This document shows positions 4,978-29,427 of a stretch of 64,000 nucleotides of DNA, piece by piece. Under the pieces are notes generated by a model. That model saw nothing but the letters and a program-made list of their open reading frames with translations, ran no database searches and was not told where the DNA came from. Numbering within the stretch: the first letter of the stretch is position 1; the number at the start of each line of letters is the position of its first letter. Source of the DNA: Betaproteobacteria bacterium HGW-Betaproteobacteria-7 (GTDB taxonomy: Bacteria; Pseudomonadota; Gammaproteobacteria; Burkholderiales; Rhodocyclaceae); assembly GCA_002840765.1 (NCBI GenBank), contig PHCE01000010.1:1-64000 (forward strand), in the 5' to 3' direction. Made by a program: the position numbers and the translations under genes.

Positions 4978-5676
4978 TCAGGCGTCGGTTGGCCCGGTCG
5001 AAAAGCGATAGCCAATGCCGCGCACCGTTTGCACCATGGCGTCCAGCTGGTGATCCTCGAGCACGCAGCGCAGGCGCCGGATATGCACATCGACCGTACG
5101 CTCCTCGATGTGCAGACGGCCACCCCAGACATAGTCCAGCAACTGTCCACGGCTGTGCACCCGCTCGGCGTGTGTCATCAGGAAATGCAGCAAACGGAAC
5201 TCGGTGGGCCCCAGAACGATCGGCGTCTTGCCGGCCAGCGCCTTGCGCGTATGCGGCATCAGGCGCAGACCGCCAAGCTCGACACCCTCTTCAATCGACT
5301 TGGCATCGCGACGGCGCAGCACGGCCTTGACGCGGGCAACCAGTTCGCGCGGCGAAAACGGCTTGGTCACGTAGTCGTCAGCGCCCGCCTCGAGCGCGGC
5401 GATCTTGTCGACCTCCGCACTGCGTGCCGTCAGCATGATGACCGGCACCTCGCGACAACGCTGGTCGGCGCGCATGTGACGGATCAACTGGAAGCCCGAC
5501 ATCCCCGGCAGCAACCAGTCGAGCAGGACGGCTTCCGGCCGCTCCTCCCGCAGCAGCTTCCAGGCCTTTTCGGCATCGTCTACCGCATTGACGACAAAGC
5601 CGGCATGGCGCAGGTTGACCAGGATCAGCTCGCTGACGTCCGGTTCGTCTTCAACGAGGAGTATTCGTGCGGACAT
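4978..5676 (-). CDS. phoB: PhoB-like response regulator (OmpR/PhoB family), no adjacent sensor kinase
   Basis: Start at 5676 gives MSARILLVEDEPDV, the usual receiver N-terminus; an upstream in-frame ATG at 5712 would add 12 unlikely residues. The receiver domain has the acidic pair Asp10/Glu11, phospho-acceptor Asp53 in LLDWLLPG, Thr83 and Lys105 in TKPFSPREL. The C-terminal winged helix includes GPTEFRLLHFLMTH, RTVDVHIRRLR and MVQTVRGIGYRFS, which is very close wording to PhoB of the phosphate regulon. PhoB activates genes for phosphate scavenging by binding Pho boxes. No phoR or phoU is nearby, so this may be a second PhoB paralogue dedicated to this locus. Ninety-five bases separate it from the CPBP protease gene upstream. 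Confidence 0.85.
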   Translation of the reverse strand: MSARILLVEDEPDVSELILVNLRHAGFVVNAVDDAEKAWKLLREERPEAVLLDWLLPGMSGFQLIRHMRADQRCREVPVIMLTARSAEVDKIAALEAGADDYVTKPFSPRELVARVKAVLRRRDAKSIEEGVELGGLRLMPHTRKALAGKTPIVLGPTEFRLLHFLMTHAERVHSRGQLLDYVWGGRLHIEERTVDVHIRRLRCVLEDHQLDAMVQTVRGIGYRFSTGPTDA

Positions 5677-5771
5677 GGGCAGGGCCAATTCAGTTGGGTC
5701 AGGGACAGCCACCGAGGATAAGCGGCGCAGATTACGGGAAGATGATGTTTAGATTTCCTGGCATGCCTCTG

Positions 5772-6470
5772 TCACCAGTACTGCCAGGCAGCGGCGTACA
5801 ACACCCAGAGACCAAGACTGCCATTGGTTACCGCGTGGGCGACAATTGCCGGCCATAAACAACCGCTGCGTCGATAGAGCAAGGCATAGACCAGGCCGGC
5901 GATGATCCCGGCGGCCCACAGACTGTGTTCGAAGCCGAAGGCGAGGCTCGACAGCAGCACCGCTCGCAGGCCAACTGCCGCCGGTGCCAGGGTGGCGAAA
6001 TCGCTTCGCTCCAGCCAACGCATCACCAGCGAACGCCAGAACAGCTCTTCGATGAAGGGTACGACCAGCGCCGAACCAAGCAGGCGGGCGATAGCCAGCG
6101 GCCACAGCAGGCTGCCATCGGCGGCCAGCGGCACGAAACCCGAACCGCCCCCACCGAGAACGAACCGTCCGCCATCCAGCGTCAACCAGACGATCAGCAC
6201 GCCGAGGCCGGCCAATGGCGCGGCCAGCAGCAGCGCCGCCGGCCGGCAGCGCAACACATGCAACTCTTCATATTGGCGCCAGAAAAGCAGCAGGAGCAAC
6301 GCCGCTACGCCACTGCGCAACCCGTAAAGCCAGCGCGGGTCAAGCTCATCGCCGAGCAGCCCGGCCAGCAGCGGCTCCGCCATCATCAGCCCGATGAAGG
6401 CGGCAAATGGCAGCAGGCGCGCGGCAGCCGGGCCGATGGCGAACGGCTTGGCGGTGACGCCGGCAATCAT
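5772..6470 (-). CDS. CPBP-family intramembrane metalloprotease (CAAX-protease-related, PEP-CTERM-linked type)
   Basis: ATG at 6470 overlaps the stop of the preceding gene by four bases (ATGA), which fixes the start. The 232-residue protein has about seven hydrophobic segments. The conserved CPBP motifs are present in order: EELFWR (Glu141, Glu142, Arg146), FGFEH (residues 178-182) and AHAVTN (His212, Asn216). Members act as membrane glutamic/metallo proteases related to type II CAAX prenyl endopeptidases. One subgroup, the CAAX prenyl protease-related family, is repeatedly encoded with exosortase systems, and the EpsL, EpsA and PEP-CTERM proteins in this window agree with that. It is the last gene of the long TPS/ExbBD array; its substrate is unknown. 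Confidence 0.8.
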   Translation of the reverse strand: MIAGVTAKPFAIGPAAARLLPFAAFIGLMMAEPLLAGLLGDELDPRWLYGLRSGVAALLLLLFWRQYEELHVLRCRPAALLLAAPLAGLGVLIVWLTLDGGRFVLGGGGSGFVPLAADGSLLWPLAIARLLGSALVVPFIEELFWRSLVMRWLERSDFATLAPAAVGLRAVLLSSLAFGFEHSLWAAGIIAGLVYALLYRRSGCLWPAIVAHAVTNGSLGLWVLYAAAWQYW

Positions 6471-7054
6471 GGCCGCGCGGTATCGTTGGCCAGACGGTCG
6501 CGCAAGTCCTCGACAGCGTTCTCGACGGCGACCCGGCCCAGGCCGGTCAGCGGCTCGCGTTGGCGGAGGGAATCGAAGCAGCCCTTGTTCTCGTAGAGCG
6601 TCAGCACTTCCGTCCCGGCTTCGCGCAAGCCGGTGACCTGCGCCGTACACGCGGCATGCTGCTGCGTGCGTTCGCCCAGCTGCGCCTGCAACTGGCGATT
6701 TTCGGCGCCACTGCTGCGCAGCTGCTCCTGGGCGGCGGCCAGATCGGCTTCCAGCCTCGCCACCCGGGCGCTCAGCTCGCTTTCCCGGCTGCGCAGCGTG
6801 GCCACCTCGCGACCGAGGCCCGCCGCCCGCCGCGCATCATCAGCCGCCTGGCTCCGGCTGCTTTCGAGCTCCAACTCGACCCGTGCCTTGTCGGCAGTCA
6901 ACTGCTGCTTTTCCTGTTGCAACTGGCGCTGCACCTGTTGCAGGCGGCGCATCTGCGCCTTGTTGGCATCGGCCGGCTGCTGGGCAGCAGCGACGACGGG
7001 CAAGCCGGCGAAGACGGCGGCGAGCAGCAGGGTAAGTAGCTTAGAAGCGCACAT
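6467..7054 (-). CDS. Periplasmic coiled-coil protein of unknown function
   Basis: The start at 7054 overlaps the porin stop by 14 bases and gives a clean signal peptide (MCASKLLTLLLAAVFAGLP, cleavage near VAAAQQ). Residues about 25-140 are an almost uninterrupted coiled coil rich in Gln, Glu, Arg and Leu (for example QQVQRQLQQEKQQLTADK). A short globular tail follows, with two Cys residues (HAACTAQV and NKGCFDS). No enzymatic motif is visible. The overlaps on both sides make it an integral member of the operon with the porin and the CPBP protease. It could be a periplasmic tether or chaperone between the porin and the inner-membrane ExbBD/TonB complex, but nothing in the sequence proves that. 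Confidence 0.7.
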   Translation of the reverse strand: MCASKLLTLLLAAVFAGLPVVAAAQQPADANKAQMRRLQQVQRQLQQEKQQLTADKARVELELESSRSQAADDARRAAGLGREVATLRSRESELSARVARLEADLAAAQEQLRSSGAENRQLQAQLGERTQQHAACTAQVTGLREAGTEVLTLYENKGCFDSLRQREPLTGLGRVAVENAVEDLRDRLANDTARP

Positions 7055-8684
7055 TGACGTCAGCCTGCAGAACATCGACCGCATAGCGGTAACTGGTGTT
7101 GGGAGCGAAGGAATCGATCGATTCGGCAGAGAGCCAGCGCATACCCAGCCAGGCGTTCTGCTGGACGCCGTACTGGAAGCCGATCTGGTAGCCCTTGAGG
7201 TTGGTGCCGCCGAGACCGAAATCGGAATCGGTGAAGGCGTCGAGCACGGCGTCCGAACCCAGATAGCGGTAGGAGAAGCTGGCCTGCCAGTCGTGCAGGT
7301 TCTCCAGCTTGGGCATGCCGACGGTCAGCCGGTACTGGTAGCCGTAATCCTTGCCATCGGTAATGTTCAGGCCGGTGCGGCGCTGCATTTCGCCGCGGTC
7401 GAACTGGGTGTTCTTGACGTAATCGGCGGTCAGTACCACGTGCACCGGGTCGAAATGGGCCAGATCAAGCGAGGCGGTCAGGTTGACTGGGCGGAAGCGC
7501 GAGGCCAGGCCCCAGATATTCGGCGCAGTGCCATCGGTCCGGTTGCGGTCGGTGTAGAACAGGGTATTACCCTTCTGGCGCAGACCGCGACCGTACTCGT
7601 ACTGACCGAACTGGGGCACGAAATTGAGCGCTGGATCGGCTTCCAGCTCGCCTTCGATGCCATCGAAGCGATACATGGCGGCGCCCAGGGTCAACTGGCT
7701 GCGGTGACCGAGCTTGAGCCGGGCGCCGGCCTGCACACCCTGCATCCAGCGACTATCCGAAGCCGTTGGATTGCTTTCGCGGATGGGGAAGGCACCGATA
7801 GTCAGGAAGGGACGCACGGCACCTTCGGCGAAGACCGGCTTGAAGGTGGCGGCTACCCCTTCGAAACTGAGATCCTCGTCCCAGACGAGATCGGTTGAAA
7901 ACCACGGGTTGGGAATCCGGCCGCCGGACAAGGACAGCCATTCGGCTGGCTCGTATTTGAGATAAGCGCGATCGACGTGCAGCGCGTATTTGTTGAAGTC
8001 CTGGCCGAGGGTCTGGTTGGTCGACACGCGGTCGGTCGCCGAGCCGGTGGCCAGCCGGATGGCCGCCGACCATTCTTCGGAAACCCGCGCCTGCATGCCG
8101 AGCCGGGCACGCAAGCGGAGGCGGTCGCGGTCATCCTGGGTATTGGCCGTCGTCCCACGCGTGTTGTCGGCGGCGAGAAAACCGGTCGCCCGGGTGCTGC
8201 CGCCGAGAGTCGCAAAAATGTAGGCCAGCGGATCGGCGTTGCTATCCGCATGCTCTTCGTTCTGGTAACGCAGCCGCAGGTCACCTTCCCACTTGATTCG
8301 ATCCAGCCAGGACGGCACCGCATTGGGCTCCGCCCAGCGTTCCTGCTTGGCCTGGGCCAGCACTTCCTGGCGCAACTGATCGCGGATTTCGTTCTTGACC
8401 GTTTCCGGTACGTACTGGACGCGCACGGTGGCCGGCGTTGCCGCTTTCTGCTTGGCAGCGCTCCGGGCGGCGCTGGCCTGGGCAGCCTTGACCAGTTCAT
8501 CGGCCTTTTCGCGGGTGAACACACCACCATCGACCAGGGCGTCGATCAGGTTGAGCGTTGTTTCGCGCAGCATTTCCAGTGATTCGCGCTCGTCGCTGGC
8601 GCTGGCGGCCGCTGCGTTGCCGACCAGGGCCAGCGCCAGCAAGCTGGCGATTAGGCGTCGCTTGGGGGTGAACATCGGTTTCAT
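7041..8684 (-). CDS. Putative outer-membrane porin (Porin_5-like) with N-terminal coiled segment
   Basis: Start at 8684 has AGAGGAC upstream and a good signal peptide (MKPMFTPKRRLIASLLALALV, cleavage near AAAASA). The mature protein begins with a helical segment (about residues 30-110: ETTLNLIDALVDGGVFTREK and following), as in SlyB/porin-type proteins that contact peptidoglycan. A long beta-barrel follows from WEGDLRLRYQNE to the end, with many aromatic girdle residues and the terminus VLQADVNVRF. The family is commonly labelled putative porin. In this operon it is the natural outer-membrane entry route for small products such as nucleosides or phosphate, or a partner of the TonB-like protein. 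Substrate specificity cannot be read from the sequence. Confidence 0.82.
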   Translation of the reverse strand: MKPMFTPKRRLIASLLALALVGNAAAASASDERESLEMLRETTLNLIDALVDGGVFTREKADELVKAAQASAARSAAKQKAATPATVRVQYVPETVKNEIRDQLRQEVLAQAKQERWAEPNAVPSWLDRIKWEGDLRLRYQNEEHADSNADPLAYIFATLGGSTRATGFLAADNTRGTTANTQDDRDRLRLRARLGMQARVSEEWSAAIRLATGSATDRVSTNQTLGQDFNKYALHVDRAYLKYEPAEWLSLSGGRIPNPWFSTDLVWDEDLSFEGVAATFKPVFAEGAVRPFLTIGAFPIRESNPTASDSRWMQGVQAGARLKLGHRSQLTLGAAMYRFDGIEGELEADPALNFVPQFGQYEYGRGLRQKGNTLFYTDRNRTDGTAPNIWGLASRFRPVNLTASLDLAHFDPVHVVLTADYVKNTQFDRGEMQRRTGLNITDGKDYGYQYRLTVGMPKLENLHDWQASFSYRYLGSDAVLDAFTDSDFGLGGTNLKGYQIGFQYGVQQNAWLGMRWLSAESIDSFAPNTSYRYAVDVLQADVNVRF

Positions 8685-8716
8685 GAAGTCCTCTCTGCTT
8701 TCGAATTCGGTGGGGC

Positions 8717-9361
8717 TCAGGCGCCCCGGCTGGTGATGCGGATGCGCCAGGGTTGCGGCACGTTGTCGGGGGGGGCCTCGCGGATCGGCGGCATCTGCAT
8801 CAGGGCTTGGCGCAACAGGCCGTCCACCGACTCGTTGCCGGTGCTCTGCCCCAGTTCGGCGCGCTCGATTGAGCCGTCCTGGCGCAGCCACAGGCGGACG
8901 ACGATGCGGTAGTCGGCCTCGCGCAAGCGGCGATTGCGGCTCAACTGTTCCTGCAGGTGGCGTTGCAGGCGGCTGGCGTACAAGCCCTGCTGCATGCCAC
9001 CCATGCCGACCTTGCCACCGACGTAGTCGCTGCTGACGGAACCGGCAGCGAAAGGTCCGTCGCCATCGCCGGCGGCGCCTTCCATCTTCAGCGGCTCGTT
9101 CTGCGCCGGTTGCGGCGCTTCCATCTTCGGCGGCTCGATCTTGGCTTCCTTGAGGTCCTTCGGCGGCGGCGGTTTCTCTTCCTTCGGCGGCGGTGGCGGT
9201 GGTGGCCGGTCGGGAATCAGGGTCAGGGTCGGCGGCTTGCGCGGCTTGCTCGGCGTGCTGTCGAGCAGACCGGATATGCCCCAGCCGATCAGCGCCAGCA
9301 CGGCGATGCCAGCCAGGGCAGCGAGCACCACCGGCCAGCGGGCACGGCTTTCCTTTTCCAT
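8717..9361 (-). CDS. TonB-like energy transducer protein
   Basis: The start at 9361 overlaps the last base of the exbD stop (TGATG). The 214-residue protein has one N-terminal transmembrane helix (about residues 10-32), then a proline/lysine-rich spacer (residues 36-85, with PPPPPPPKEEKPPPPKD) typical of TonB. The C-terminal domain contains YRIVVRLWLRQDGSIERAEL, ESVDGLLRQALMQMPP and PWRIRITSRGA, matching the TonB_C fold. Such proteins couple the inner-membrane proton motive force, via ExbB/ExbD, to outer-membrane partners. No TonB-dependent receptor is in the window; the nearest outer-membrane partners are the porin and the TpsB transporter, which is unusual. Confidence 0.83.
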   Translation of the reverse strand: MEKESRARWPVVLAALAGIAVLALIGWGISGLLDSTPSKPRKPPTLTLIPDRPPPPPPPKEEKPPPPKDLKEAKIEPPKMEAPQPAQNEPLKMEGAAGDGDGPFAAGSVSSDYVGGKVGMGGMQQGLYASRLQRHLQEQLSRNRRLREADYRIVVRLWLRQDGSIERAELGQSTGNESVDGLLRQALMQMPPIREAPPDNVPQPWRIRITSRGA

Positions 9362-9765
9362 CAGTTGCCGATCCGCGAGGTGATCAGGCCGACCGAGCCG
9401 ATGCCCATGGCCCCGGTCAGGTCGAGCACTTCGACGACACGGGCGTAATCGACCGCCGGATCGCCCTTGAGCACGACGGAAGCCTTGGGATCGCGGGCCA
9501 GCGTCGCCTTCAGCTGGCTTTCCAGTTCGGCCACGGAGACGCCGACGCCGTTGAGCAGCAGGGCGCCGTCCGGACGGATCTGGATGATCTTGATCTCGTG
9601 CTGCTCGGTGCTCGGTTTGGCCGACGGCTTGGGCAGGCTGATCGACAGCCCCTGCACCGAGGCGGTGGTCATGATGATAAAAATGACCAGCAGCACGTAG
9701 GCCAGATCGAGCATCGGCGTCACGTTGATGGTGTCGTAGGGTTTGGATTCGGTCTGGACGTGCAT
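9361..9765 (-). CDS. exbD: ExbD/TolR-family biopolymer transport protein (first copy)
   Basis: The 134-residue protein has the usual ExbD layout: a short cytoplasmic start, one transmembrane helix with the proton-conducting Asp20 in TPMLDLAYVLLVIFIIM, and a periplasmic domain ending LTGAMGIGSVGLITSRIG. ExbD sits inside an ExbB pentamer and drives TonB. It lies four bases downstream of a second exbD and overlaps the tonB-like gene by one base, so the three are translationally linked. The first 40 residues are nearly identical to the neighbouring copy, while the periplasmic domains differ clearly. This suggests an old duplication with divergence of the peptidoglycan/TonB-facing part. Confidence 0.9.
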   Translation of the reverse strand: MHVQTESKPYDTINVTPMLDLAYVLLVIFIIMTTASVQGLSISLPKPSAKPSTEQHEIKIIQIRPDGALLLNGVGVSVAELESQLKATLARDPKASVVLKGDPAVDYARVVEVLDLTGAMGIGSVGLITSRIGN

Positions 9766-9769
9766 GGTC

Positions 9770-10177
9770 TTAGCCCGGTGTGGCCCGCGTCGTGGCGAGG
9801 CCGAGGTCGGTGATGTCGTTGCGCTTGAGCAGTTCCATGATTTCCATCACCGTGGCGTACTGCACCCGGGCATCGCCCTTGATGACGATGGACAGCTGCG
9901 GACTGGACGCCTTGTACTGGACGATGCGGGTTTCCAGCTGTTCCATGGTGACCGGATAGGCATCGAGGAACAGGTCGCCATTGCTGGCGATGGTCACCGC
10001 CTTGGTCTGCGGCTTGGCCAGGCTGGCCACCGCCTGCGTCTTCGGCAGATCGACCTTGACGCCCTGCACCGAGGCGGTGGTCATGATGATGAAGATGACC
10101 AGCAGCACGTAGGCCAGATCAAGCATCGGCGTCACGTTGATGTCGTCGTAGGGCTGGTTTTCTTCCTGCAGCTGCAT
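9770..10177 (-). CDS. exbD: ExbD/TolR-family biopolymer transport protein (second copy)
   Basis: This 135-residue ExbD has a GAGGGCC ribosome-binding sequence upstream. It shares the transmembrane segment TPMLDLAYVLLVIFIIMTTA with the other copy, including Asp20. The periplasmic part (QGVKVDLPKTQAVASLAKPQ up to MELLKRNDITDLGLATTR) is different from the first copy. It starts 10 bases after the ExbB-fusion stop. Two ExbD copies behind one ExbB occur in some TonB clusters, where a heteromeric ExbD pair may form or each copy may serve a separate transducer. Here a single TonB-like gene follows, so the heteromer idea is plausible but unproven. Confidence 0.9.
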   Translation of the reverse strand: MQLQEENQPYDDINVTPMLDLAYVLLVIFIIMTTASVQGVKVDLPKTQAVASLAKPQTKAVTIASNGDLFLDAYPVTMEQLETRIVQYKASSPQLSIVIKGDARVQYATVMEIMELLKRNDITDLGLATTRATPG

Positions 10178-10187
10178 GATCAGGCCC

Positions 10188-11921
10188 TCACCGCGAATAG
10201 AGTTCGGCGGCGCGCGTCACGAACTCGTCGGCGAACACCTGCACGTCGGCCGAAACGTTCTTGATCTGGCTGGCCAGCCAGTTGTAGCCAAACAGCGCCG
10301 GGATGGCGACGGCCAGACCGGCGACGGTGGCGACCAGGGCGGCGGCGATGCCCGGCGCGATGGCGTTGACGTTGACGTCACCGGCAGCGGCAATGGCCGC
10401 AAAGGTGATCATGACGCCGACCACGGTGCCGAGCAGGCCAAGGAAGGGGCCGCCGGAAATGGCGATGGTGAGCAGCACGATCTGGCTGTTCAGGCGCTGG
10501 TTCTCGCGCACCATGCCGGCATCCATCGAGGCGCGGATGGCATCGAGCGAGGCCCCGGAGAGGCCGTCCTCGCGGCCGCGGGCACGGAAGCGCTGGGCCA
10601 TTTCCTGGATGCCGATGGCGTACAGGCGGTAGATCGGCGAGTTGGCGACCGACGGATCGCCCTGCATCGCCTTCGCCTCGGTGGTATCCGGATCGAGCAG
10701 GCGGTCAGCCTCCTGGCGGAAGCGATCAATGAAGCGGTTGTTGGCCGATTTCACCAGGCCGAGGAAGTGGGTCTTGCCAACCATCACCAGAACGCTGATG
10801 ACGAACATGATGCCGAGGATGATGATGACGATCCAGCCGTCAATCGTCACCGCACTGAGCAGGATGTTCATGTAGGACAGTTCTTCGGCGGGCTCGGCGT
10901 CGCTGGTCAGCATCAGCGTATCGGGCTGCTGGCTGCCGTAAAGGGCGAGCAGGTAATCGCTGGAACGGGCTGTGGCCGCCAGGGTGACTTCGTCGATGTC
11001 GCCGCGGAAACCGCCGCCGATGCGCAGGTCGCCCTCGACATCAGCCAGCGCCACCTCGCCGGCGACCGCTTCCAGACCATCGACATAAAGCGTCAGCTTG
11101 CCGCCGATGACGGTCAGCACCACGTGCTGCCAGGTATCCTCAAGCAGTTGCGTGGCCACTGCAATTTCCTTGCCGTCCGCCGTCGCCGTCAGCTTGCCGG
11201 CGCGCAGGCCGAGGCTTAGGCCGCGGCCACCCTCGCCCTGGGCGAAGAGCAGGCCGTCGCCGGCACTGCTACCGACCGCCGGCTTGACCCAGGCAGTGAA
11301 GGTGAAGCCGTTGGCGGCAACCAGCTTGAGGGCCGGCGCTGCTGGCACGACCAGCGGCTCTCCACCCGCGAAACGCAGGGCATCGCCGAGCGGGCCGGCG
11401 ACGCGCGGTGCCGCGAAATCGGCCGGGTGATGCGCGTGGGCGGTCGCGTCGCGCGGCGTCCCGGCGCTTTCCGAGAAATGCAACACCAGCGTCTGTTGCT
11501 TGTCGTAACTGGCCTTGGCATCACTTGCCGGTGCTGCCTTGTCGTTGCCCCAATGCAGGTGGAAGGCATCGCTGCGCGCCAGCGGCACCAGTTTCGGCTG
11601 CTGCAGCCAGATCACCGCCAGTTCATTGACGGCATCGAACTTCTCGAGGTGGAAGGACAAGGGCGTCTTGCCATCGGCCGCCGAAACACGCAGGTCGCTG
11701 CCATCCGGCAGCGCCTCGGCAAACGGGAAGTTGCCAGAATGCAGGCGGACGGCAATCGGCACCTGGGCGGCGCCTTGTTTCAGCTCCACCCCGTCGGCCG
11801 TGGTGTCGATCACCGTTTTCCGGGCATGCTCCCAGTCGTCGGGAGCAAAGGACTGGGCAGCCGCCGGACCTGCACAGAGCAGACCGGCGACAGCCAGCAG
11901 GGAAAGGATTCGCTTTTTCAT
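10188..11921 (-). CDS. exbB: DUF2341-LamG-ExbB/MotA/TolQ fusion protein
   Basis: The 577-residue protein has a signal peptide (residues 1-22, ending GPAAAQ). A DUF2341 region follows (about 50-150, with VPIAVRLHSGNFPFAEA and ELAVIWLQQPKLVPL), then a LamG/concanavalin-like domain (about 165-320: NGFTFTAWVKPA, TWQHVVLTVIGGKLTLYVDG). The C-terminal part is an ExbB/TolQ proton channel (about 350-577), with WIVIIILGIMFVISVLVMVG as first helix and GPFLGLLGTVVGVMITF as the conserved channel helix. The sugar-binding-like LamG domain must face the periplasm while the ExbB helices sit in the inner membrane. The family is known from annotation but its biology is poorly understood. It is the ExbB partner of the two ExbD copies downstream. 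Confidence 0.85.
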   Translation of the reverse strand: MKKRILSLLAVAGLLCAGPAAAQSFAPDDWEHARKTVIDTTADGVELKQGAAQVPIAVRLHSGNFPFAEALPDGSDLRVSAADGKTPLSFHLEKFDAVNELAVIWLQQPKLVPLARSDAFHLHWGNDKAAPASDAKASYDKQQTLVLHFSESAGTPRDATAHAHHPADFAAPRVAGPLGDALRFAGGEPLVVPAAPALKLVAANGFTFTAWVKPAVGSSAGDGLLFAQGEGGRGLSLGLRAGKLTATADGKEIAVATQLLEDTWQHVVLTVIGGKLTLYVDGLEAVAGEVALADVEGDLRIGGGFRGDIDEVTLAATARSSDYLLALYGSQQPDTLMLTSDAEPAEELSYMNILLSAVTIDGWIVIIILGIMFVISVLVMVGKTHFLGLVKSANNRFIDRFRQEADRLLDPDTTEAKAMQGDPSVANSPIYRLYAIGIQEMAQRFRARGREDGLSGASLDAIRASMDAGMVRENQRLNSQIVLLTIAISGGPFLGLLGTVVGVMITFAAIAAAGDVNVNAIAPGIAAALVATVAGLAVAIPALFGYNWLASQIKNVSADVQVFADEFVTRAAELYSR

Positions 11922-11969
11922 GAACAGTACTCGTGGTTTCTTGTGGAATCGGTCGGGGTTGTCGGGAAA

Positions 11970-17900: not shown

Positions 17901-20900
17901 CTGGCTGGTCTCGCCAAGCAAGCTGGCCCGCGTGGCGGCGACCGAGGTCACGCTGCCGTCATGCAGGGTGACCTTGCCGCCGCTTGCCGGTGCGCTGAAG
18001 ACGATTTCACCGAGCGGCGCGGAGACCATGCCGTAGACGTCGATCGTGCCGGCGGCAAATTCGCCGCGGCCGCCGACCGAAAGCGTGTCGCCAGCAACGG
18101 CACCGGCTGGGCGCCTGATCTCGATCTTGCCGGCGGGATCGCCCAGCAGATCGATACGGAAATCGCTGTAGGCGGTCGGCCCCACGCGCGCGGCCTTGAG
18201 GACAAGCGTGCCGGTGGCATTCATGCGGCCGTTGTATTTGCGGTTGCTGCCGGGCAGCGTCACGTTGTTCTGCACGCTGGCAAGGTGGATATCGCCGCGG
18301 CTGTCGAGGGTCGTCGTTGCGAAAGCATTCCAGGCGAAGCTGCCGACCAACGCGATATCGTCAGCCTCGACCGTCGCCGTCGCCGTGCCACTACTTGCGG
18401 CATCCGGCGTGCCGGCATTGAGCGCGAAATTGCCGATTTCGACAGCGGCGGCCTTGAGCGTCACATTGGCGCCGGCGGCAGCGGAGTAACTCTTCGCGTC
18501 CAGCCGCAACTGATTGTCTACAGCGACCGTCTGCGTGCCGGCGAAGTGGATCTTGCCCTCGCTGCCGAGATACCAGGAACCGAAGCCGCCACGAGCAAGC
18601 TGGCGGGTATCGAGTTCGGCCTTGCCGTTGTAGATGCCCGGAGCAAGCGACTGGGTGCCGCTCAGGTAGGCTGCGGTGATTTCGTCATCCAGCGCCCATT
18701 TCGCCGCATGCTCCTTACCGCCGTCATATAAAGCCAGGGAACGTTGCGCATCGAGAGCTTCCGGCAAGCCGGTCTGCAGGTACCAATTGCTCACCGAGTC
18801 GTTGGCCAGGCGCAGGGAGAATGTCCCGCCGAGCGCACCCTCGCCGCCCTTGCCCGCAATGTCGCCATCCAGGAACATTCCCTCGCGCGCCGCCAGCGCG
18901 ACGCGACCGCCGCTGCTGCCGATCCGGCGCGGCAACATGGCGGCGACGGCGCCGCCCGTGGCGCTTGCCTGGTTAAGGGTGTCGGTCGTTCCTTCGACCG
19001 TGATTTGCGAGCCGGCGCGAGTAATCAGGTAACCCAGGCCGGCGTCGATTTCAATGCGGCCGCCATCGCTGACGCTACCGGTATAGCGACCGCGCGCCAG
19101 CAGTTGGGCGGGCGTCACGCCGCCTTCAAGGGCGAGGCGAGTCGCCCGGTCGAGGCGGGTCACGCCGCCGGCGAGAAACTTCGCCTGCGGCCCGAGATAA
19201 ATTGATTTCGCTTGCTGATCATCGCTGTAGTCAAGCTGCGCAGGCATGCTGCGCGTCAGGCTGATGGTGCCACCCGCCGCTTCCAGCGTACCCAGCACGG
19301 TGAGCTGGCCGGGGCCGAACTGACCGATGATCCCTGGCCCTACGGCAGCACTGATCAGCCCCCCCGGATCGACGGCCAGGTAACTACCTTGGCCGATGCT
19401 CAGGTTGCGCCCGGCGCTCAGGGCGAGGCTGGTCGGCGCGTTGCGCACGTCGGCATGAAGTTGTTTGAGCGGCGCGAAGCCGGCCAGTGCCGTACCGCTG
19501 GCAACATGGCGGTAGGTCAGGGGCGAAACCAGCCACCACGACAAGGGTGTGGGGCGAACCGTCGTCTTCTCGGCAACGCTCAGGTTGTTGAGCGCCGTCA
19601 GGTTGAAATGCGCAAAGCCGCCCTGGGTGAAACGATTGCTGGCAATCGTCGCGCCTGCCGCAGCAATCAGGCCATCGCCAACGCGGATGAAGGGGCTGCT
19701 GATCGCCAGCGACCCGCCCTTGCCGAGCGCGTAGCCGTAAAGTTCGCCGTCGGCGAACAGCGACGAGGCGGCGTAGGAGCTGTCGCCAGCGGAGCCGTAG
19801 CGCCCTGTTTCCAGGGCAATCTCGCCGGCGTCGCCGCTCTCCAGCTTGCCGTCGGCGGTGACAAGGCCACCACCGGAAACGTCGAGCACACTGCCGGCCT
19901 CAAGGTTGAGATCGTAGGCCGAAGCAAGCGTGATGCTGCCCCCCATCGTTGCCTTGGCGCGTGTCGGCATGCGGCGATCAAGATAGTCGTTCACCCAGTC
20001 ACCGGCGGTCGATAGCTTGGCGCCGCCCTTGACAATCAGTGTCGAATACCGGGCATCGTCAAAGGTCGGAAACTGTCCGGCAGCGGCGCTCATGTCACGC
20101 GTCGCCAGCTCGATGCTGCCACCCACCGCCGTAATGTCCCCGCCGACCACGACCTGGCGTCCGCTGGCCGTGAAGCTGCCGCCCGCACCAAGATCCACTG
20201 CGATATCCGCAGGTATTTCAATACGCCCGTCGCTTTGCAGGACAAAGCGCGAGAAGCCGGCGCCGGCCAGACCATCCGACAACTCAAGGCGTGGCCCCGC
20301 GCTGTCTGTCACAGCCAGTCCGGCCGACGCCGTGGCCGCTCCACGGACAAAGACCATCTGTGCCTGCGTGTAAGCGGCCAGCTTCTCGGCTTCACTGGCC
20401 GCCAGGCGGTCGCCGACCGTGAAATGCTGACCGGCATCCTGCACGATCAGGCGGCCGCCGAGCGGCCGCGCATAACGATCACTGTCCGGATCGCCAAGCT
20501 GGCGCTGCTTCGCACCCGGCGTTGTCGTCGCCGTCAACTGGCCGTCGAGGGCGATGCTGTGACCAACGACTTCGACCGTGCCGGCGTTCTTCCCTTCGCT
20601 GTAGGCCGCCTCCGTGCGCGTTACCGTGCCCAGCGCGGCAATCTGCGCATTCGCTGAGACATCGTTCAGGCGGTCGATCTTGCCGGCCCTGGTCATCACG
20701 CGCGATTCCTTGACCGTTCCTGCGGCATAGTCGACACGACCACCCGAGACGTCAATCGCCGCCCCCCCCTTGACGATGACGCTGCCACCGCTGCGCAACG
20801 ATACCGTGCCGCCGGCCGCCGCCTTTTCTTCCACCGTCTGCCCCACCTTGTCGGTCCAGCCGCTGATATCGGCAATCTTTACCGCATCGCGCATGTCGAT

Positions 20901-23342
20901 CCAGGCCGTCTCGCCGCGCAGTACACCGTTACGCTGCACCGGGTTGGCGGCAAGTTCGTCACCACGCAGTTCGACCTCGATAAACAGGTCGGCAACCGAC
21001 TTGCTAGCGATGGTACCGGCAACATCGATACGCGCATGGTCACCGACGAAAAGGCCGATGTTGGCGTCCGGAGTAGCTGTTTGTGCCGGCTTGACCGGAT
21101 CGCCAACGAAAGCCGCACTGTCGGCGAAGAAGCGATCTCGCGCCTGAAACTCGACCTTGCCGCCTGGTGCATGAATGTCACCGTCGACAACGATCTGCGC
21201 AGCGGCCCCCTCGACCGATGAAGAGAGGAAGGTCTGGTCAGCCGCAATCAGCTTGCCACTGCTACCGTCGATCGCTACCGTCGTAGCGCTGCCGGCGGTC
21301 AGCGTCAGCTTTCCACCCACCTGGCCGACGGCGAAGGTTTGCTTGTCGATTTTCTCCGGGTTGATGGCTTCGTAGGGCACCACCTGGCCGGTGGCGACGT
21401 CGTAGTTGCGCTCGGCAAGCGAGTTCCCATCGATCAGCGAATCCGTGCCCGCTACCGGCATACCGGCCAGCGCCATCTGATCACGCGCCAGCAGGCGGAT
21501 CGAGCCGTTGGCCGTCGCCGAGGTCGAACTGGCAAGGGTGCCAGCCTGCAAGATTTCGTGGCCCACCAGCGTGATGTTGCCGAGTGCCGCGTCGACACGC
21601 CCGGTATTGCTCACGGCATTGGCATCGGCACCGCGCGAGAGAATCTCCCAGGCCGTAGCGAGATCGTCACGCCTGACGTAGAGCGGATTGACTTCGGCGG
21701 CGAACCCACGCAGCGCCTGGGCGAATGGCGGCTTCAGGTATACGTCGGCACCGGCGGCAAGAATCGCCTGTCCTTTGGGTGTACTGATCCAGCCGGCATT
21801 GTTGACCTTGCCACCGGCGAGGATGGCGTAGCCGTTGTCGGCCGTGCGAATCTGGGCGCCACTCGCCACGTTGACCGTCGCTCGGCGAAATTCTTCCAGC
21901 GCCGTCATTTTCGTCGCCTCGGCCGTACCGGCATCGGCAACATACTGATCCTTGCGCAGATAGAACGAACGCGTCGTCGGTTCGCTCTGCATGAGCAGGC
22001 CGCCCGTCAGCACGTCGGCGTGTACATTGAGCGCCGAGAGCACGATATTGTTGGCGAACAGCGAAGCCGCACCGCCGACGTCAATACCGAGCTGATTGAT
22101 CAGAAAAAGCTGGCCGTTGGCGGCAAGCGTGCCATCAAGCCGGGAACGACCGGCATTGCTGGCGCTGCTGGCGCGGCCTGTGTCGTTTACGTGGACGAAG
22201 TTGTAGACCACCGAGCCGCTGTCCGGCTGAATGAACTCGACAGTCTTGCCGGCCCCGACGGAAAAGCCGGAAACCCAGTCAATCTCGGCTTTCTTGCCGC
22301 GCTGGTGGATGGTCAGGCGGTCGGTTTCCGTAGCGCCGGAAACGAGCATGTTGGTGCCGTTCAGGTTGACCGCTCGGGTGGCGTTGATCATCCCCTTTTG
22401 GTTGACGGCGAGGGCCGCCAGCGTCACCACGCCGCCGCTACCGGCGTTGATGGTGCCGGAATGGTTGACGCTGCCGTCCAGTTTGACGGCATTGCCGAGC
22501 GCATCGCGCGTGGCGAAGGCATCGGTTTCGACCAGCAGGCCGCGCAAGGATGGGTCATCGGGTACGGTCAACACCACCTTGCCGCCGGCGGCGAGAATGG
22601 CTTCGATGCCGTTGCCTTCGATCGTGCCCTTGTTTTCCACCGTGCGCGGCGCCAGCAGCACCACCCGGCCGCCATCGGCGCTGGCGATGCGGGCCCCTGA
22701 ATCGACAGTGACGAAGCCGGCGGCAAAGCCGGCATTGTCGCCATCCCAGGTGAAGCTCAGGCTGTCACCGCGGTTGCTCGGCAGCCCCTGGTTGAGCAGG
22801 CGTTCGAGCATGGGCTGCGACAGGTTTAGGGCCGAGGCGATCAGCCCGCCGACATTCACCTGGGCACCGTTGCCAAACAGGATGCCGTTCTGGTTGATCA
22901 GATAGACCTGGCCGTTGGCATCCAGGCGGCCCATGATGACGCTCGGATCGGCCGACCAGATGCGGTTGAGTACGCGCGACGTGGCATCCGGCTGGATGAA
23001 GCGGACGCTGGCATTGCTGCCGATATTGAAGGAATCCCAGTTCAGACCGAGCGTCCGGCTGGCCGTGTTGATCGTCATCGCCGAACCGACGATGCTCGGC
23101 GCTCCGCCGGCGACGCTGCCGCTGAAGACGAAGGGACGGCCAGCCATCGTCGAGGCCACCGGCAGCGCCCCGGGTGACGGCACGCTCTGCGCCCCGGCGG
23201 CGCCGGCGAGCAGTGCCAGCATGGCGGCCGCCAGCGCCTGTCGGCGGCTGCGCCGCTTGCCGCGACCGCGGACGTGTTCGGCCACCGGCACCCAAGTGCC
23301 ATGCTCCTCATCGAACACCAGGCGATACAGATTGCTGTTCAT
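11970..23342 (-). CDS. Giant filamentous-haemagglutinin-like TpsA exoprotein (3790 residues)
   Basis: The start has a GGGGAG ribosome-binding sequence. The N-terminus is an extended signal peptide region (MNSNLYRLVFDEEHGTWVPV, then a basic stretch and a hydrophobic core ending AGAAGAQ near residue 51). The TPS secretion domain follows at about 55-300, with LNWDSFNIGSNASVRFIQPD and LINQNGILFG. A second related copy occurs at about 354-440 (IDWVSGFSVGAG, VEFIQPD, LINQLGI). The remainder is beta-helix-forming repeat of GG/T/V/N-rich strands. On reading the whole protein I see only two cysteines, residues 3772 and 3783, 19 and 8 residues from the C-terminus. It is exported by the TpsB encoded 30 bases upstream and probably forms a very long surface fibre. 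Confidence 0.93.
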   Translation of the reverse strand: MNSNLYRLVFDEEHGTWVPVAEHVRGRGKRRSRRQALAAAMLALLAGAAGAQSVPSPGALPVASTMAGRPFVFSGSVAGGAPSIVGSAMTINTASRTLGLNWDSFNIGSNASVRFIQPDATSRVLNRIWSADPSVIMGRLDANGQVYLINQNGILFGNGAQVNVGGLIASALNLSQPMLERLLNQGLPSNRGDSLSFTWDGDNAGFAAGFVTVDSGARIASADGGRVVLLAPRTVENKGTIEGNGIEAILAAGGKVVLTVPDDPSLRGLLVETDAFATRDALGNAVKLDGSVNHSGTINAGSGGVVTLAALAVNQKGMINATRAVNLNGTNMLVSGATETDRLTIHQRGKKAEIDWVSGFSVGAGKTVEFIQPDSGSVVYNFVHVNDTGRASSASNAGRSRLDGTLAANGQLFLINQLGIDVGGAASLFANNIVLSALNVHADVLTGGLLMQSEPTTRSFYLRKDQYVADAGTAEATKMTALEEFRRATVNVASGAQIRTADNGYAILAGGKVNNAGWISTPKGQAILAAGADVYLKPPFAQALRGFAAEVNPLYVRRDDLATAWEILSRGADANAVSNTGRVDAALGNITLVGHEILQAGTLASSTSATANGSIRLLARDQMALAGMPVAGTDSLIDGNSLAERNYDVATGQVVPYEAINPEKIDKQTFAVGQVGGKLTLTAGSATTVAIDGSSGKLIAADQTFLSSSVEGAAAQIVVDGDIHAPGGKVEFQARDRFFADSAAFVGDPVKPAQTATPDANIGLFVGDHARIDVAGTIASKSVADLFIEVELRGDELAANPVQRNGVLRGETAWIDMRDAVKIADISGWTDKVGQTVEEKAAAGGTVSLRSGGSVIVKGGAAIDVSGGRVDYAAGTVKESRVMTRAGKIDRLNDVSANAQIAALGTVTRTEAAYSEGKNAGTVEVVGHSIALDGQLTATTTPGAKQRQLGDPDSDRYARPLGGRLIVQDAGQHFTVGDRLAASEAEKLAAYTQAQMVFVRGAATASAGLAVTDSAGPRLELSDGLAGAGFSRFVLQSDGRIEIPADIAVDLGAGGSFTASGRQVVVGGDITAVGGSIELATRDMSAAAGQFPTFDDARYSTLIVKGGAKLSTAGDWVNDYLDRRMPTRAKATMGGSITLASAYDLNLEAGSVLDVSGGGLVTADGKLESGDAGEIALETGRYGSAGDSSYAASSLFADGELYGYALGKGGSLAISSPFIRVGDGLIAAAGATIASNRFTQGGFAHFNLTALNNLSVAEKTTVRPTPLSWWLVSPLTYRHVASGTALAGFAPLKQLHADVRNAPTSLALSAGRNLSIGQGSYLAVDPGGLISAAVGPGIIGQFGPGQLTVLGTLEAAGGTISLTRSMPAQLDYSDDQQAKSIYLGPQAKFLAGGVTRLDRATRLALEGGVTPAQLLARGRYTGSVSDGGRIEIDAGLGYLITRAGSQITVEGTTDTLNQASATGGAVAAMLPRRIGSSGGRVALAAREGMFLDGDIAGKGGEGALGGTFSLRLANDSVSNWYLQTGLPEALDAQRSLALYDGGKEHAAKWALDDEITAAYLSGTQSLAPGIYNGKAELDTRQLARGGFGSWYLGSEGKIHFAGTQTVAVDNQLRLDAKSYSAAAGANVTLKAAAVEIGNFALNAGTPDAASSGTATATVEADDIALVGSFAWNAFATTTLDSRGDIHLASVQNNVTLPGSNRKYNGRMNATGTLVLKAARVGPTAYSDFRIDLLGDPAGKIEIRRPAGAVAGDTLSVGGRGEFAAGTIDVYGMVSAPLGEIVFSAPASGGKVTLHDGSVTSVAATRASLLGETSQSGRQWNFATGTWNDGSLTKSLEEIAAAPEKRIRIDAGDSTVEAGATLNLSGGGEAFAWEFSPGATGKLDLLLAAEGANPTLFAVVPDWLGRFSGLDASALGLYGVSAPKATGKDSSGKTTYSYDLVPTLKAGDQIRIDGNGSGLAAGNYMLLPARYALLPGAYLVSVKPTSNAVVAQARPQADGSWLANATLLAASHAHGNTAYSQQPLTVELASPSVVAGRGRYSLTSATDFFFDSVGARLSGDAGQLSVIGREKLLFDPSVIATRAATLAAADGRQRAGIGLELDLAAPKLLVSDGTATAVDDTWSAIDQDKLVALGASSLLLGGTRSNTDGITAIETIADEVVVANAGNAGGTRAIERALTAAEVMLTAQDAVTVTSGSRVESTGSAAERSIALSGDGAFLRVAEGSQAAPERTGANSSKGTLTVAADAAVAGRSVVLDATKETTVDGALEVGTRQSDGSRNGGALAIGASRINVVGNAPLPSEGFNLRPADVARLTTVDQLRLTSYSTLDLYDNAILGAATLKELILSAKGIAGHGAVGETAKIAAQQVRFENSSGAAASFVANGEGKLQVNAGQIVFADNVADQATRDDETTGFALRGFDAVDLLASGDLRFAGRGVTSIDNVGGSGNATQLTIDAGRVTTVGTADHLLAASGKTIVRGGNALVGEETGLGGALELRGKSLEVTALKDDDGNVLKSAGRIETAAGRITLAATGGDASDGVVIGEGARLAAEGRRIAFADTAAYADGGTITLSAAEGNVAVGAGASVSVSAATGGGNAGTLNLLAAKGEVSAVAGTLRGTGGEGGTLRADAQTLRLDNLADAVTESLAGGGTEQHFTGQWDIRRRDGSLVLNENAGATKSIRAAEVSIAADNGGIDIRAGGTIDASGSKGGSIALQARNGDVELGGTLLARGEEVVENINNAGTRGQGGDVLLASTGGKVKTVAGSDIDVGAATGSAAQGGRVSFRADKSASIANAGDLNIKLAGSVAGARDVGAEIVSRYSGDYTALNAGTTSGTTLGLTSIKNDLSALYTTANMSVLRSQLGFGSNAEFHVRPGVEIVGAASGDFTIAADLDFTTLRFADEAGVLTLRAQNNLKINNSISDGFTKASANSTGAFLATGRDAKVDSSDASWSYRLVAGADTGAAAVTAVKAGAGGGNLDIASAKVVRTGTGDITLAAQGNVTLADRAVVYTAGRADATVIANFASAGAAGDTSATGQRNYFTTNGGEIRVNAGGNITQAKTGSVSDWLITYSKGYDSTQWWARMASLQQGFATFGGGDIALAAGGTIGKVNAAVATNGRVPGIAGEARPDLAVIQGGGDLKVTAKTIDGGQFYAETGRLNLAAARDILNDTQVALGNTTAVVNAGGSTSIGSIFNPLSFPQGAPKNTAGASVNTHYGNNTIGYRMRIGTYGPDSSLAIRALTGDASAAMKGYSGTKPIDMAPSRVSVVALNGDVKAKILQWPGSEGQLDLLAANNVIVDSLMQMDIPAERLPSLTNPVVSSSNKGADPFGSDITAASLVHSSSLWHGNDREPSRIIALAGDIEGKTATSVANFNEAATVQAGGDIKNLSIITQHASASDVTRIEAAGQLLMPSDINVPGALESRIQTSGPGRLEVIGGEGVNLGVSAGIISRGNLENPYLPEGGADITVLAGTTKPDYAGFLAWLQGKGIAVGDVSEAGLRTVFFKLLRDSGLAAQTGAGYAGYAEGRAAIAALFPSATLKPANIDLFYSTVKTEQDGKIELLAPAGGVTVGLASPDEKTIAKKKPSDLGLFTFRGGSIQAMLRDDFLVNQQRVFTLGGSDILVWADRGIINAGDGAKTVSATPPPVLVVRDGQIVLDASNSVAGSGIGTLASRDDTPPANMYLFAPDGTIDAGDAGLRSTGNITLGAQVILNASNIQAGGAVSGAPASATAAAPVAAISTTNNENRLLEEAPTAAGRRDDASGLLTVEVLECGETRDGKRGECDESATPG

Positions 23343-23372
23343 CGTGCACTCCCCGCGGGCATCGGCTGCCCC

Positions 23373-24980
23373 TCAGAATTCATAACCCAGGCGGAAATGC
23401 GCGCGCTGGGCGCCGCGTCCGGTCCGTGGTCCATCGCGCAGGGTCTGCGCCAGATCGAGGGCGAACAACGGGCCGCCCGGCCGTCCCTTCAGGCTCAGAC
23501 CAACGCCAGCACTGGCCAGCGTGAAGCGCTCCTCCTGGCCGGGCAGCGCATCGTTCAGCCAGACCTGGCCGTGATCGACGAAGACCAGGGCGCGCAGGCC
23601 GCTGCCCGCAATATCGAAGAGCCCCGGCGTACGCACTTCGCCACGCAGGCGCCAGCCGACATCGCCGGCCGCCTCGCCGGCGAGGTAGCCGCGCACGCTG
23701 TCCACACCACCGAGCAGCATCTGCTCCGGTGACACCAGGGCCTGGCCGGCCAGCTGGAAATCCAGCCGGGCAAAGCTTTCCCAGCCCGACCAGCGGCCGG
23801 TGTAAGCGACATCGCCACGCACTGCCGAGAAGCCCGGCCGCGCATATGCCCGCCGGCACTCGAACTGGTCGAGACGATAGCCCTGGCAATCGATCTTCCG
23901 CGAATGGCTGCCGGTATTGACCACCAGCCCGAGATTGCCGCTGAGCTCCGCAGATTCGCCGTAGTTGCCGAAGGTGTACTGGGCGACCAGCGGCATGTAG
24001 CGCAGTGGCGTGTCCTTACTGTCGGCGCCGAGGGCGTTCTGCGTCTCGTCGAGATTCTTGAAGTCAGCGCCGAGCGACAGGGAATGGAAGAAACCCGGCC
24101 AACCGCCGGCCTGCGGCAAGCTGAGGCTGAACCGCGCACCCAGCGTCGTGCCCTTGCCGACGACGTTTGAGCCGAGCGCCGCCGCGATGTTGCTGTTCGA
24201 ATACTGGGCGAAGGCCGACAGCGACGTGCGCGGCCCCAGCGGCAGGCTGTAGAAGGCGGCAAGGACGCTGACCTGCTCCGGATCCTCGGGGGCAACGACG
24301 TAGTTGAGGCCGGCCGAATGCTGCTTCTGGAACAGGTTGGTGTAGCGCAAACCGGCTTCCAGGCGCAACCGTTCCGTATCCGGGCTGCGTCGGTTGTTCA
24401 GCTCCAGCGAGCCATGCACCGGCAGTTCGTCCTCCACCGCCAGCTCCACTTCCATGGTCCCTGGCCGGGCGCCGGGGCGGAGCAACGGCGTCACCCGCCG
24501 GTCGGGCGAGCGCCCGGCCTGCGCCAATTCGGCCTGCATGGTCGGGAAATGCGGCACCGAACCGGGCGCCAGCTCCGGCACTTCGCTGCGCAACTGGTTG
24601 CGCGAGGTATAGCGATTGCCGCTGACTTTCAGGCGCTCGACCTCACCTTCGACAACGACCAGGCGGATGACCCCACCAGCCAGCGGCTGACTGGGCAGCA
24701 GCACCGACACCGACAGGTAACCGGCGGCCTGGTAAGCAGCCTCCAGCGCCGCCCGCGCCTTCTCGATATCGGCCAGCGTGCGCCCGGGGCCAAGGGAAGG
24801 ATAGACGGCGCGCTCGATCTCGATCGCCGGCAGCACGGAATTGCCCTCGACGGCGAACTCGCGCAGCTCGAAACTGTCAGCGGCGGCGGCAAGGGTGGGA
24901 AGCAGCGCGGCGACGACAACGGCCGTCCGCAGGAAGAGTCGGGGAATAGGCATGGCCGGCGGATTATGGGCAGACGACAT
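23373..24980 (-). CDS. TpsB outer-membrane transporter (ShlB/FhaC/HecB family)
   Basis: Two starts are possible: 24980 (weak GGATGGG upstream) and 24953, which gives a tighter signal peptide MPIPRLFLRTAVVVAALLPT. The mature protein has POTRA-type repeats (ELREFAVEGNSVLPAIEIER at about 38-57; VERLKVSGNRYTSRNQLRSE). A 16-stranded barrel follows with the family signature DSVRGY in loop 6 (ALVSPEQMLLGGVDSVRGYL) and the terminus AHFRLGYEF. Two cysteines lie in one loop (KIDCQGYRLDQFECRR). It secretes the TpsA encoded directly downstream. It is the first gene of the long array, and the 140-base gap upstream contains the terminator of the convergently ordered pstS-like gene. Confidence 0.92.
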   Translation of the reverse strand: MSSAHNPPAMPIPRLFLRTAVVVAALLPTLAAAADSFELREFAVEGNSVLPAIEIERAVYPSLGPGRTLADIEKARAALEAAYQAAGYLSVSVLLPSQPLAGGVIRLVVVEGEVERLKVSGNRYTSRNQLRSEVPELAPGSVPHFPTMQAELAQAGRSPDRRVTPLLRPGARPGTMEVELAVEDELPVHGSLELNNRRSPDTERLRLEAGLRYTNLFQKQHSAGLNYVVAPEDPEQVSVLAAFYSLPLGPRTSLSAFAQYSNSNIAAALGSNVVGKGTTLGARFSLSLPQAGGWPGFFHSLSLGADFKNLDETQNALGADSKDTPLRYMPLVAQYTFGNYGESAELSGNLGLVVNTGSHSRKIDCQGYRLDQFECRRAYARPGFSAVRGDVAYTGRWSGWESFARLDFQLAGQALVSPEQMLLGGVDSVRGYLAGEAAGDVGWRLRGEVRTPGLFDIAGSGLRALVFVDHGQVWLNDALPGQEERFTLASAGVGLSLKGRPGGPLFALDLAQTLRDGPRTGRGAQRAHFRLGYEF

Positions 24981-25046: not shown

Positions 25047-25074
25047 AAAAAAAAAGCCCGCAAAATCTGCGGGC
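25047..25074 (-). terminator. Rho-independent terminator after the pstS-like gene
   Basis: On the minus strand a 7-bp perfect stem GCCCGCA/TGCGGGC with a 5-base loop is followed by nine T residues. It lies 45 bases after the stop of the PstS-like gene and just before the TpsB operon on the same strand. It therefore separates the phosphate-binding/PEP-CTERM unit from the TPS array. Confidence 0.9.
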
Positions 25075-25119
25075 CCCTCCACAAGTGCGCCCCCTCACGA
25101 GGGCGCGCCATGGTAACGA

Positions 25120-29327: not shown

Positions 29328-29427
29328 GGCTTGGAGGATCCGGAACGGGCGATGCCCGAGAAGAGTGGCGACTCTACCCATTCAGGATTACGCGCATGTT
29401 GCGCTTCGATGACAAACGACAATTCCG

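Follow-up and report, generated by a model that had tools for sequence, protein, structure and literature searches.

Conserved association of DUF3739-type two-partner secretion with a putative Ton/Tol-like motor in a Rhodocyclaceae genome and its relatives

A nine-gene array in Betaproteobacteria bacterium HGW-Betaproteobacteria-7, lying within a 64,000-nucleotide stretch of contig PHCE01000010.1 (hereafter the window), is real, correctly placed and conserved beyond chance. It combines a two-partner secretion (TPS) pair, TpsB and TpsA, with an ExbB-type channel fused to DUF2341 and LamG domains, two ExbD copies, a TonB-like protein, a porin, a coiled-coil protein and an intramembrane protease. 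Sequence comparison establishes the gene content, gene order, partner specificity and conservation of the TpsA tail, and the parts stay together across families and beyond the class. We give about an even chance to the reading that these genes form a phosphate-linked surface-adhesin system, with a dedicated Ton/Tol-like, proton-driven motor for TpsA proteins bearing DUF3739.

The gene array and its conservation

The first-pass annotation of this DNA had described nine minus-strand genes, overlapping or at most 48 bases apart, and both the arrangement (5772-24980) and the families it named were confirmed by the coordinates and by Pfam profile search. Read on the minus strand, the features are as follows.

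23373-24980, minus: TpsB, outer-membrane transporter (ShlB PF03865, 74.6 bits; POTRA_2 PF08479, 59 bits)
11970-23342, minus: TpsA, 3790 amino acids (ESPR PF13018; TPS domain PF05860, 75 bits; C-terminal DUF3739 PF12545)
11970-12053, minus: C-terminal tail of TpsA with the TonB-box-like strand LLTVEVLECGE (tail alignments)
10188-11921, minus: ExbB/TolQ-type channel fused to N-terminal DUF2341 and LamG (DUF2341, Laminin_G_3 and MotA_ExbB in Pfam)
9770-10177, minus: ExbD/TolR 1, transmembrane Asp present (PF02472, 95.5 bits)
9361-9765, minus: ExbD/TolR 2, transmembrane Asp present (PF02472, 90.2 bits)
8717-9361, minus: TonB-like protein with hydrophobic N-terminus, Pro-rich linker and TonB_2 C-terminal domain (PF13103, 28.8 bits, cut-off 22)
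7041-8684, minus: Porin_5 with a conserved VRVxYVPE segment ahead of the barrel (PF16930, 563 bits; alignment of 40)
6467-7054, minus: coiled-coil protein with a signal-like N-terminus (alternative start 7084; relatives are placed after the porin)
5772-6470, minus: CPBP (Rce1-like) intramembrane protease, TIGR03008, model name pepcterm_CAAX (186 bits, cut-off 81.05)

TpsB and TpsA are separated by 30 bases, TpsA and the fusion by 48, the fusion and ExbD by 10, and the two ExbD genes by 4; ExbD and TonB overlap by 1 base, TonB and porin lie 32 bases apart, and the porin/coiled-coil (with either start codon) and coiled-coil/protease junctions overlap. With a TPS-domain exoprotein adjoining a POTRA/ShlB transporter, the first two genes are predicted to form a two-partner secretion (type Vb) system. 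The signal-peptide-like start of the fusion was judged by eye, and all Pfam matches of the coiled-coil protein remained below cut-off. Two ExbD copies are also present in four congeners and in G059, and other mapped loci show one. The absence of a TonB-dependent receptor, remarked on in the same annotation, was borne out: Pfam matched none among the nine proteins. Single-sequence AlphaFold2 models were uninformative, with a mean predicted local distance difference test (pLDDT) of 35 for the TpsA C-terminus and 32 for the PstS-like protein encoded upstream.

The gene order, which the annotation had proposed looking for in other genomes, proved to be conserved in relatives, where the fusion lies near TpsA and the porin. 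In a 60-genome sample that includes the window genome, the fusion was found, complete or partial, in 8 further genomes, and all 8 loci keep the order fusion-ExbD-TonB-porin; 7 of them have TpsA and 6 have TpsB, the absent genes falling beyond contig ends (G027, G035). Leaving the window aside, 43 fusion genes were mapped, and behind 37 of them one or two ExbD genes, TonB and Porin_5 come next on the same strand; succession was judged among mapped families with no distance limit. The six others are second copies lacking a porin in G178, G195 and G209, the genes of G069 and G675, and one at a contig edge (G129). DUF2341, LamG and MotA_ExbB were found together in each of the 21 aligned fusions, and a search of genome contigs with the fusion pointed to one named relative, Dechloromonas sp. 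isolate SB18. Within the genus the fusion occurs in 5 of 36 sampled genomes, the window genome included, a patchy distribution suggesting transfer or repeated loss.

At genome level the partner of the fusion is the DUF3739 TpsA. Across a class sample of 369 genomes (again with the window genome, and the same for all counts of fusion, DUF3739 and TPS domains), the fusion was present in 22, DUF3739 over cut-off in 23 and both in 21 (Fisher p 6e-31, which overstates independence because the genomes are related); a match in G282, which was under cut-off in a genome without the fusion, was left out. All three mismatches lie near a contig end: the fusion of G163 at base 441 of its contig, the DUF3739 of G160 at base 46, with a cut fusion at another contig end, and the DUF3739 of G259 at base 556, adjoined by a cut TonB-like frame in a genome that is 64% complete. 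In a phylum sample of 398 genomes, DUF3739 was found in 14, all with the fusion (partial or split matches in G690 and G608); 10 of these were new, 3 of them from outside the class. Of the 369 genomes, 122 have a TPS domain of any kind, and just 20 of these 122 have the fusion; therefore the motor goes with one class of TpsA and not with TPS at large. The proposal that the energised complex serves the TpsA fibre or the porin is thus supported in part: genome comparison speaks well for an association (fusion and DUF3739 near one-to-one, a porin behind the motor in 37 of 43 cases), and not for one particular protein as the one acted on by the motor.

Two or three DUF3739 TpsA genes accompany one fusion each in G608 (L156, L162, L165), G781 (L154, L161, L164) and G690 (L151, L160), as if one motor served several adhesins there.

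The TpsA tail and the assignment of the motor

Tail alignments revealed that a variable linker, often rich in Ala and Ser, leads from DUF3739 to a conserved strand, [IV]xVEVLGFG[DE], which in several TpsA proteins forms the very last residues and whose likeness to a TonB box we assume. The core pattern, drawn like the looser one from the very tails scored, is present in 32 of 40 distinct DUF3739 tails (mean 1.9 and maximum 7 in 1000 shuffles of the tails). It also matches 60 of 2106 other frames at least 200 amino acids long, and none of the 12 closed TPS proteins that lack DUF3739; the looser pattern occurs in 37 of 40 tails versus 1 of 12 controls. The 40 tails remained after 20 TpsA frames had been dropped for cuts at stretch edges, short profile coverage or duplicate tails (that of G708 is identical to that of G333), and the 12 controls after removal of 4 of 16 proteins with open ends. 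The window tail (VEVLECG) fits the loose pattern and not the core. The two Cys of the window tail raised the possibility of a cysteine hook at the C-terminus of TpsA; it was rejected, as Cys is not conserved in the alignment.

A second strand (YDPxxxVQVLGxG-like) is found in 11 of 13 TpsA tails near a VreA-like gene versus 0 of 27 others, an association weakened by confounding with ancestry; counting L189 as VreA-positive (L222, beside L189, holds two unlabelled TonB-domain frames) changes these figures to 11 of 14 versus 0 of 26. The two VreA-associated tails without this strand come from one genus (G333, G795). These VreA-like genes, with a TonB and an STN domain like VreA, belong to loci of the PUMA3 type, compared below with Pseudomonas aeruginosa. 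The label was assigned by hand per locus from profile matches, up to about 15 kb from TpsA: among 9 frames tested with Pfam, STN was found in 4 and TonB_2 over cut-off in 3, two more frames from other loci match the FecA N-terminus, and the remaining labels are profile matches. The G333 locus also contains extracytoplasmic function (ECF) sigma, FecR-type and GspE genes. In hhalign comparison the C-terminal domains of the array TonB and of the VreA-like proteins matched with a probability of 99.1% over 113 columns, by which measure they are homologous. In the window, a merged VreA/TonB profile matched only the array TonB, and vreI and vreR were not sought separately.

The family assignment of the motor is mixed. 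The fusion scores 127.3 bits against TolQ (cut-off 221) and 69 bits against ExbB, its best profile matches in the Protein Data Bank (PDB) being TolQ, and both ExbD proteins score best against TolR (92.3 and 83.7 bits, cut-off 127.3). Neither the ExbB/ExbD equivalog cut-offs (TIGR02797, TIGR02803/02804) nor those of the Tol proteins were reached, and TolA, TolB and Pal were not found among the nine array proteins. The array TonB profile gave weak matches to TonB and HasB structures. Since the ExbB channel domain, the transmembrane Asp of ExbD and a TonB C-terminal domain are all present, the motor is predicted to work like TonB-ExbB-ExbD, yet it should not be filed as canonical ExbBD.

Neighbouring genes and the link to phosphate

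The picture extends beyond the nine genes to the PstS-like, PEP-CTERM and PhoB genes and, elsewhere, to the VreA-like genes. The following features flank the array in the window.

26680-27471, minus: PEP-CTERM protein, a conserved upstream partner (PF07589, 29.1 bits; same position in relatives)
25120-26619, minus: PstS-like (PBP_like_2) relative of phosphate-binding proteins, 499 amino acids (profile evidence)
25050-25080, minus: terminator-like hairpin plus T run, separating the PstS-like gene from TpsB (scan match, 14 pairs)
4978-5712, minus: PhoB (TIGR02154, 310.2 bits, cut-off 296.2)
3727-4941, minus: EpsL outer-membrane protein, XrtB/PEP-CTERM-associated (TIGR03014, 346.6 bits, cut-off 275)

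The 499-residue protein has no Pfam match of its own; PBP_like_2 was matched by 6 of the 19 aligned members of its family. The profile of these 19 members has as its best PDB match 4ecf, a periplasmic component of ATP-binding cassette (ABC) type phosphate transport (E 2.8e-6), and the other 14 matches listed are mostly weaker ones to phosphate-binding or ABC periplasmic proteins. Relatives of a G333 protein in which the PBP_like_2 domain was verified adjoin TpsA in G333, G708, G795, G540, G729 and G690, that is in 6 of 9 PUMA3-type genomes examined. The PstS-like gene ends 139 bases before TpsB, with the hairpin in between; this hairpin is only suggestive, because the region has 14 such scan matches as compared with 13.6 in shuffles. 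A promoter scan gave 1 match versus 2.7 in shuffles.

Pho-box-like sites (at least 12 of 14 positions matching upstream of a gene) were counted in relatives against 30 shuffle runs. They precede 8 of 41 fusion, 8 of 33 TpsB and 4 of 39 TpsA genes, where shuffles gave means of 0.9, 0.8 and 0.9 and maxima of 4, 4 and 3; the orientation is clean for the fusion only, because the reverse strand gives 2, 5 and 4 sites, respectively. Among the other genes they precede 1 of 40 for the porin, 1 of 33 for the coiled-coil protein and 1 of 17 for PEP-CTERM, and none of 50 for ExbD, 44 for TonB or 19 for the PstS-like protein. A Pho box as evidence in the window itself was dropped, because 2 matches to the 18-base consensus (3 mismatches at most) were found versus 3.4 expected by chance. 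The PstS-like gene upstream, PhoB downstream and the Pho-box enrichment in relatives together point to a link with phosphate. The window genome has one further PhoB over the TIGR02154 cut-off (349.8 bits), two in all.

Further genes of the window were noted beside the array. A plus-strand row encodes a secreted 5'-nucleotidase-like RTX protein (34418-36700), a choice-of-anchor I PEP-CTERM protein (37307-38824) and an ExeM/NucH extracellular nuclease (38839-41904), plausibly a set for scavenging phosphate from DNA. On the minus strand upstream lie a LuxR-type regulator (27759-28529; this type makes up 7 of 127 flank proteins in relatives), an ankyrin-repeat protein (28539-29381; one ankyrin protein was found in the relative locus L042) and a GspD/PilQ/MshL-like secretin with a TPR part (30784-33048). 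GspE-type Walker patterns were seen near the array in G080, G336, G178, G540, G708, G795 and G333, and T2SSE was confirmed by Pfam in G080 and G333; we presume that these secretin and GspE neighbours recall Hxc beside pdtA.

The protease exceeds the curated TIGR03008 cut-off, and the window genome (G000) has two matches to the exosortase family PF09721. Of the array genomes tested, 30 of 40 have this family, versus 11 of 34 other genomes (one of the 11 under cut-off). Dependence on exosortase as a core feature, prompted by the PEP-CTERM protein and TIGR03008, was rejected because PF09721 is missing in 10 of the 40 array genomes.

Interpretation and relation to known systems

The mechanism that we consider could proceed as follows. 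The LamG head would lie in the periplasm, given the signal-like start and the topology of ExbB. TpsB would export TpsA with its N-terminus first, so that the DUF3739 region and the tail would come last and could linger in the periplasm. There the conserved strand might act as a TonB box, gripped by the C-terminal domain of the TonB-like protein, and by this grip the ExbB-ExbD motor would retain, pull or release the adhesin, with the porin and the coiled coil possibly serving as an outer-membrane dock. In a subset of loci, the VreA-like sensor with its homologous TonB domain may read the second tail motif, and expression would answer phosphate shortage. A more far-reaching version, which we hold to be possible though rather doubtful, is proton-powered two-partner secretion using TonB-box-like strands, one per TonB-type partner: the motor would control export, anchoring or release of the fibre, and in some lineages VreA would read the second strand and inform an ECF sigma factor of the state of export.

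One alternative is that Porin_5 is a gated importer, for instance of phosphate esters, that draws its energy from the motor, the TpsA fibre capturing the substrate or being merely co-regulated. It is a tentative explanation, to which we assign about half the weight of the adhesin motor, and it would account for the porin following TonB in 37 of 43 cases, for the phosphate context (PstS-like protein, PhoB, Pho boxes) and for the strongly conserved VRVxYVPE strand ahead of the barrel as a possible TonB contact. Porin-type barrels are normally passive, however, the genome-level partner of the fusion is the DUF3739 TpsA (the count was made for DUF3739 and not for Porin_5), and in G675 the porin lies with TpsB on a contig other than that of the motor. 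It is less probable, and in our opinion unlikely, that independent modules of one phosphate-starvation regulon travel together while the Ton complex serves receptors encoded elsewhere. The Pho-box enrichment, motor copies without TPS, TPS genes on the strand opposite to the motor (G308, G373) and the separate pdtA and phdA promoters reported in P. aeruginosa (PMC4971064) would agree with this, but mere co-regulation would not be expected to produce the near one-to-one occurrence across many families and the specificity for DUF3739 TpsA. Least probable of all seems a Tol-like envelope machine that remodels the outer membrane and cell wall to anchor a very large fibre without gripping TpsA. Such a machine would fit the TolQ and TolR scores and the PDB profile, and its LamG head may bind glycans, although no Tol cut-off was reached, the third component is TonB-like and the remaining Tol-Pal proteins do not appear among the nine.

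Several observations weigh against a motor dedicated to TpsA. Its action on TpsA is something that we infer from genomic association. Second fusion copies (G195 L104, G178 L115, G209 L117) are accompanied by ExbD and TonB, and their retrieved flanks contain neither TPS nor porin genes; the motor can therefore have other clients. (Next to the L115 copy lie frames whose ends look PEP-CTERM-like by eye, and Pfam found none in the one frame tested.) The tail patterns were scored on the tails that defined them, and one control TPS protein without DUF3739, L242, has a similar YEVLGSG that narrowly misses the core pattern. The G-x-G part is missing from four tails (those of the window, G014, G035 and G051), and no clear motif could be made out in L189 of G564. 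The second motif follows ancestry as well as VreA, and P. aeruginosa VreA was reported to be dispensable for sigma-VreI activity (PMC7035377), a finding that would agree with a degenerate second motif provided that G333 and G795 resemble that species. With respect to phosphate, the window has no Pho-box-like site above 10 of 14 before TpsB, and PhoB is adjacent in just 2 of 8 order-level loci, both congeners. Finally, type V secretion is described as reconstitutable without external energy (PMC5422565), and in P. aeruginosa, insertions in tpsA, tpsB, PA0695 (a tonB homologue) or PA0696 were described as leaving virulence in zebrafish at the level of the parent (PMC2729926).

If the adhesin motor is nevertheless true, it would be an exception, open to testing, to the assumption that two-partner secretion needs no energy source; it would also suggest a role for DUF3739 and an idea of what VreA senses. 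The linkage is partly published, an association of TPS, ExbBD and PA0696 in several genera having been noted (PMC2729926). The DUF3739 rule and the tail motifs were not found in the open-licence literature searched, where the term DUF3739 occurs in no paper and no title among the matches listed concerns a motor for DUF3739 TpsA.

Known systems resemble the array to different degrees. The TonB-ExbB-ExbD complex shares the channel, an ExbD with a membrane Asp and a Pro-rich TonB-like rod; unlike it, the array has a DUF2341-LamG head on an ExbB that scores under the ExbB equivalog, and no TonB-dependent receptor. Haemophilus influenzae HxuCBA is likewise a TPS pair working with a TonB-dependent partner, and its operon, as outlined in PMC5422565, has a TonB-dependent transporter and no motor genes are named, the array being the reverse. 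DUF2341 is named as an N-terminal domain of unknown function on MotA/TolQ/ExbB homologues, "generic ion transporters", for which the relevant part of PMC12505986 gives no partner or function, whereas here DUF3739 TpsA is proposed as the partner.

The nearest known system, likened by its published gene list, is P. aeruginosa PAO1 pdtA / phdA-pdtB-exbB2-exbD2-tonB4-PA0696-PA0697 of the PUMA3/PhoB regulon, which shares with the array the TPS pair, ExbB, ExbD, TonB, a putative outer-membrane porin and a further protein (PMC4971064, PMC7035377); the array thus contains the whole PUMA3/Pdt-type set of TPS, ExbB, ExbD, TonB and porin. A PhoB/VreI-dependent transcript, phdA-pdtB-exbB2D2-tonB4-PA0696-PA0701, was reported there, with pdtA having its own promoter and the motor genes sharing another, both PhoB-dependent (PMC4971064). 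PA0696 is termed a putative porin (PMC2729926, PMC4971064, PMC7035377), and the Ton genes are called uncharacterised (PMC7035377); a motor acting on TpsA would suggest a client for them. Unlike the P. aeruginosa locus, the window has no vreAIR by the profile search above, two ExbD genes, the TIGR03008 protease, PEP-CTERM and EpsL neighbours, and TpsA placed between TpsB and the motor. Relatives with the PUMA3-type layout nevertheless carry both the DUF2341-LamG-ExbB fusion and a DUF3739 TpsA.

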